A stretch of DNA of 64,000 bases, from positions 1-64,000 of the forward strand of contig NZ_JARBJP010000004.1 of the NCBI RefSeq assembly GCF_029309905.1, read 5' to 3'. The notes under the pieces are model-generated. The model had not been told where the DNA came from. It searched no databases and was given only the letters and a program-made list of their open reading frames with translations. Positions 62 through 116 of the stretch are shown piece after piece; position 1 is the stretch's first letter, and each line of letters starts with the position of its first letter. The stretch is from Brytella acorum. Its GTDB lineage: Bacteria; Pseudomonadota; Alphaproteobacteria; Acetobacterales; Acetobacteraceae. A program made the position numbers and the translations under genes.

Positions 62-116
62 CCCCCCCCCCCCCCCCCCCCCCCCCCCCCCCCCCCCCCC
101 CCCCCCCCCCCCCCCC
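62..116. repeat. Uninterrupted 55-base poly-C tract (poly-G on the minus strand)
   Basis: Positions 62-116 are all C, directly after A61 and three more Cs at 58-60. On the coding (minus) strand this gives a run of glycine codons replacing the C-terminal part of the phosphomannomutase. A 55-base pure homopolymer is far longer than bacterial phase-variation tracts normally are, and it sits at the window edge next to alien AT-rich sequence. I favour a sequencing, cloning or assembly artefact, but the sequence alone cannot exclude a real tract. Confidence 0.9.

Follow-up and report, generated by a model that had tools for sequence, protein, structure and literature searches.

The run of 55 consecutive C near the beginning of the analyzed DNA, together with the AT-rich bases beyond it, is almost certainly an artefact of two-colour short-read sequencing, in which G is the dark base, and of assembly at a contig break. 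The window, meaning the whole stretch of 64,000 nucleotides under analysis, starts with the first base of contig C4 in a draft assembly of 3,321,354 bases in 42 contigs. Below we describe the run and the gene that it interrupts, the evidence that joins this gene to a second contig, the error pattern of the two contig ends and the possible cause of the signal loss.

The C run and the interrupted gene

The sequence-only reading of this DNA had reported a poly-C tract of 55 bases at positions 62–116, and the tract is indeed there, 61 bases inside the end of C4. Based on the composition of the window, about 3e-21 C or G runs of at least 55 bases are expected in 3.32 Mb. The longest other C or G run within positions 201–64000 comprises 10 bases (C10 at 19086–19095, inside an open frame). 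A scan of the organism's own genome for runs of 14 C on either strand returned three places, namely the run itself, a C14 at C4:196000 and a run of 23 G at C7:132302–132324, which is followed by 125 bases up to the end of contig C7. The segment between the C4 run and the contig end had been described as 57 bases of alien, AT-rich DNA. Its AT-richness stands, with 23% G+C vs about 62% across the window, but the segment measures 61 bases and is, as shown below, best read as the continuation of the gene itself, with many bases miscalled. In BLAST-type searches of the genome neither this segment nor the end of C7 had a second copy at E <= 0.001, and both tails matched only themselves; such searches are blind to miscalled matches, which were detected only by sliding the tails without gaps.

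The run interrupts a minus-strand gene, whose part on C4 contains the Pfam domains PGM_PMM_I, PGM_PMM_II and PGM_PMM_III. Immediately ahead of the G23 run of C7, and again on the minus strand, we found 72 codons and a stop with a match to PGM_PMM_IV (E 1.8e-8). Scanned apart, the two contigs hence hold all domains I–IV of the PGM/PMM family, with I–III on C4 and IV on C7. Elsewhere in the genome, nothing matches the domain-IV stretch of C7 better than E 0.39, and this stretch is 52–77% identical to its counterpart in 30 relatives (ungapped, at most 60 positions). The earlier claim that the run cuts a phosphomannomutase gene is therefore correct as to the interruption of a gene with domains I–III, but the C-terminal domain is not lost, as it sits on C7. 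“Phosphomannomutase” is a family name only here: no NCBIfam cut-off for a named equivalog was reached, and the best model, that of archaeal GlmM, scored 107.7 bits vs a cut-off of 439.

Table 1 Features of the interrupted gene and of the C4 end. Positions are those of the window unless contig C7 is given.
Feature	Position	Strand	Remarks
Phosphohexomutase-type gene, first 422 codons, domains I–III	118..1383	-	GTG start at 1383
Same phosphohexomutase-type gene, last 72 codons	C7:132083-132298	-	Pfam PGM_PMM_IV
Run, in all likelihood misread	62..116		55 dark cycles, written as G in the outward (coding) direction and as C on the + strand; taken as non-genomic
Tail, in all likelihood miscalled	1..61		C-terminal part of the gene itself, correctly read on C7; back in register after the dark cycles

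Joining of the two contigs

When 20 N are placed between the two contigs, the frame from GTG 1383 is open for 502 codons up to a stop, and it aligns without any indel to the homologous loci L010 and L012 through the join. These two loci alone cover the join in this alignment; L011 was not picked up and the frame of L064 ends early. The latter locus, from Asaia prunellae (match 3001–4238), has a frame that stops after 351 residues vs about 500 in L010 and L012, which may reflect an error in the frame or a genuine break. The distance from the LSDR motif to the LRPSG motif, spanning the linker before the C-terminal domain, is 65 residues in the joined gene, and it is also 65 in 30/30 measured relatives. 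Of 397 family genomes, with the own genome counted in, 53 relatives matched at E <= 1e-100. The 31 loci among them that carried locus ids were tried for this comparison, and with both strands read the anchors were located in 30 of the 31, L106 being missed. Altogether, the enzyme gene appears ordinary and is most likely whole; nothing shows a break.

Gene order was of no help for the join. Open reading frames of at least 150 codons, taken from C7 (20 kb) and C4 (12 kb), served as queries against the surroundings of the gene (approximately 40 kb) in the relatives G025, G022 and G008 (tblastn, E <= 1e-20), and no neighbour from C7 had a match there. The sole matches were the gene itself, plus an open frame on its opposite strand, and a match of 24% identity in G022 to the open frame at C4:5583–8033. 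Because these relatives belong to other genera, this null result speaks neither for nor strongly against joining C4 and C7.

Read outward, both contig ends enter poly-G, with 55 G from C4 and 23 G from C7. On the coding strand of the gene, this corresponds to a G run from the C4 side and a C run from the C7 side, and the run consequently belongs to the reads and not to the gene. To place the tails beyond the runs, each was slid ungapped along the other contig, with 29,899 alternative positions over the two strands and 20,000 shuffles as the comparison. The C7 tail (125 bases), placed on C4 from window position 120, reaches 70/125 identities, while all other placements give at most 53 and the shuffles at most 52; along the tail, its identity drops from 30/40 to 22/40 and then to 18/45. 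The C4 tail, placed on C7 at an offset of 35, reaches 28/61 identities, against no more than 26 elsewhere and 27 in the shuffles. Under a colour-tolerant score, this placement ties with one other on the same strand and two on the opposite strand, and its weight therefore lies in the identity count and in its agreement with the C7 tail. Both placements yield an equal missing length (23-3 = 20 and 55-35 = 20 bases), and the 20 unseen bases lie between window position 117 and C7:132301.

These results also bear on two readings that take the sequence at face value. According to the first, which the sequence-only reading had offered as its alternative, the genome carries a real, very long poly-C/poly-G tract whose slippage switches the enzyme, with real AT-rich DNA beyond it. 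The run does fall within a reading frame, and its length greatly exceeds chance expectation, but on the coding strand the end of C7 shows the opposite run, the AT-rich bases match the gene's own continuation in register, both tails leave room for just 20 true bases, and the longest G or C run in the LSDR–LRPSG stretch of the 30/30 measured relatives is 7. We consequently find the proposed switch unsupported and regard a genuine tract as extremely improbable. The same holds for a real rearrangement, or for foreign AT-rich DNA inserted where the gene ends, to which we assign an equally negligible probability. The low G+C content of the C4 tail against that of the window would fit such an event; however, the tail matches the C-terminal part of the gene precisely where the C7 tail would place it, and it is found only once in the genome at the threshold given above.

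Error pattern of the contig ends

Having placed both tails, we compared them with the true sequence. The 186 aligned tail bases carry 88 errors. Errors on true C are mostly to A (24/28), as are those on true T (10/14), and 7 of the 11 errors on true A are to T; true G (n = 35) was miscalled as T in 16, as A in 10 and as C in 9 cases. Under a scheme in which G is dark, A lights both channels, C one and T the other, 69/88 errors are gains of signal, compared with 51 for the next of the 12 schemes; 17/88 are signal losses and run contrary to the pattern. Both channels are informative when the two tails are pooled, with Fisher p values of 1.4e-9 and 1.7e-15; in the C4 tail by itself, the corresponding values are 0.07 (green, weak) and 1.1e-4. 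The G+C content of this tail is 23% as read vs 56% in the true sequence; it looks AT-rich because C was mostly miscalled as A and G often as T.

In two-colour labelling as described in PMC11140927, C and T each carry a different single label, whereas A has both labels and G has none. In the same vein, a passage of PMC11001894 describes the trimming of poly-G as “no signal” in NovaSeq data, and GRIDSS2 is described in a section of PMC8274009 as filtering breakends with poly-C or poly-G of at least 16 bp. In our case, G is called in the reading direction at both contig ends, the run stands in place of true sequence and the errors follow the channel scheme. We therefore infer that a two-colour instrument was behind these data.

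The sequence of events was very likely as follows. Reads coming from either side would reach a hard stretch in the linker that precedes the C-terminal domain, approximately 20 bases long, where the signal is lost. With no signal, G would be called for tens of cycles. Subsequently, the signal would partly return, in register, with many false positives, so that C (one channel) would appear as A (both channels) and dark G as T or another lit base, leaving an AT-rich tail. The assembler, unable to join such read ends, would have retained them as the ends of C4 and C7. An artefact at a contig end had been the favoured explanation of the sequence-only reading, and it is borne out by the normal C-terminal domain at the end of C7, in frame over a gap of 20 bases.

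Possible cause of the signal loss and further runs

A hairpin in the 20 unseen linker bases is a plausible cause of the signal loss, for which the data are suggestive. Going further, we consider it an even bet that these bases are an inverted repeat, perfect or nearly so, that stops reads of both strands, and that channel logic can decode the poly-G ends and AT-rich tails of draft genomes in general, so that the gaps between them become measurable and joinable. In the relatives, the fold of the linker (60 bases around the core) is more stable than all 76 upstream windows of the same gene in 7/30 cases, with a median rank fraction of 0.26 across the 30. In G025 the linker holds a stem of 6 bases with a loop of 3, and the best stem comprises only 4 bases in many relatives. 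Alternatively, the dark cycles might stem from another cause, such as base composition or a library effect. The 20 bases themselves are unseen, and the modest rank of the linker fold and the short stems in the relatives are in line with this possibility, which we nonetheless consider the less likely one: reads of both strands darken at the same 20-base core, and a second case in this genome, in an IS66 gene, coincides with a site whose counterpart in the relative G061 is a perfect palindrome.

This second case emerged among the other runs of the assembly. Eight places in the genome have a G or C run of at least 10 bases, and composition alone predicts about 1.3 runs of at least 13. One run of 13 G, at C28:1736–1748 (locus L074, C28:1500–2000, run at 237–249), lies in an IS66 Orf2 gene (TnpB_IS66, E 5.3e-36). 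The alignment with the relative G061 (90% identity over 466 bases) is ungapped at this site, and at 7 of the 13 run positions G061 has a base other than G. There, the site is a perfect palindrome of 24 bases, of which the G13 covers bases 3 to 15; the same site in L109 and L110 is an imperfect palindrome and has no G run. In the protein, the G13 creates a false PPPP. Judging from this alignment, the G13 is probably a dark-cycle miscall inside a contig, a milder case of what is seen at the ends of C4 and C7. This one IS66 case suggests that hairpins cause dark cycles in these data.

Several further runs are listed here as observations. The C14 on C4 (L040, C4:195700–196300, at 301–314) lies upstream of an open reading frame that resembles a glycosyltransferase by eye, and it may be a real tract or a miscall. 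G runs of 13, 10 and 10 bases occur in L076 (C1:456400–456900), L075 (C12:8650–9100) and L077 (C1:623500–624000), respectively; a megablast search of the first of these stretches against plasmids gave no match.

As a practical consequence, two false claims, one of foreign DNA and one of a giant phase-variable tract, are removed, and contigs C4 and C7 become linked. Wherever long C or G runs near contig ends are followed by AT-rich sequence, dark cycles and channel errors should be suspected, and the tails behind such runs can still hold position information. As biology, the finding is of low interest; that such in-register tails can be decoded is a minor technical curiosity. A small search of the literature for in-register recovery or for contig ends made of dark cycles found nothing.

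In comparison with known systems, the runs resemble the poly-G tails of two-colour sequencers, where G is called in the absence of signal. They differ from the usual tails of this kind in that the assembly incorporated the run into contig ends and in that the later sequence is in register and can be decoded. Phase-variable homopolymer tracts, on the other hand, occur in surface-sugar genes, and the C4 run shares with them its position as a C/G run within a reading frame. Unlike those tracts, however, it would be absent from the genome itself, given the opposite runs at the two contig ends, the mere 20 bases missing between them and the lack of any such run in the measured relatives.
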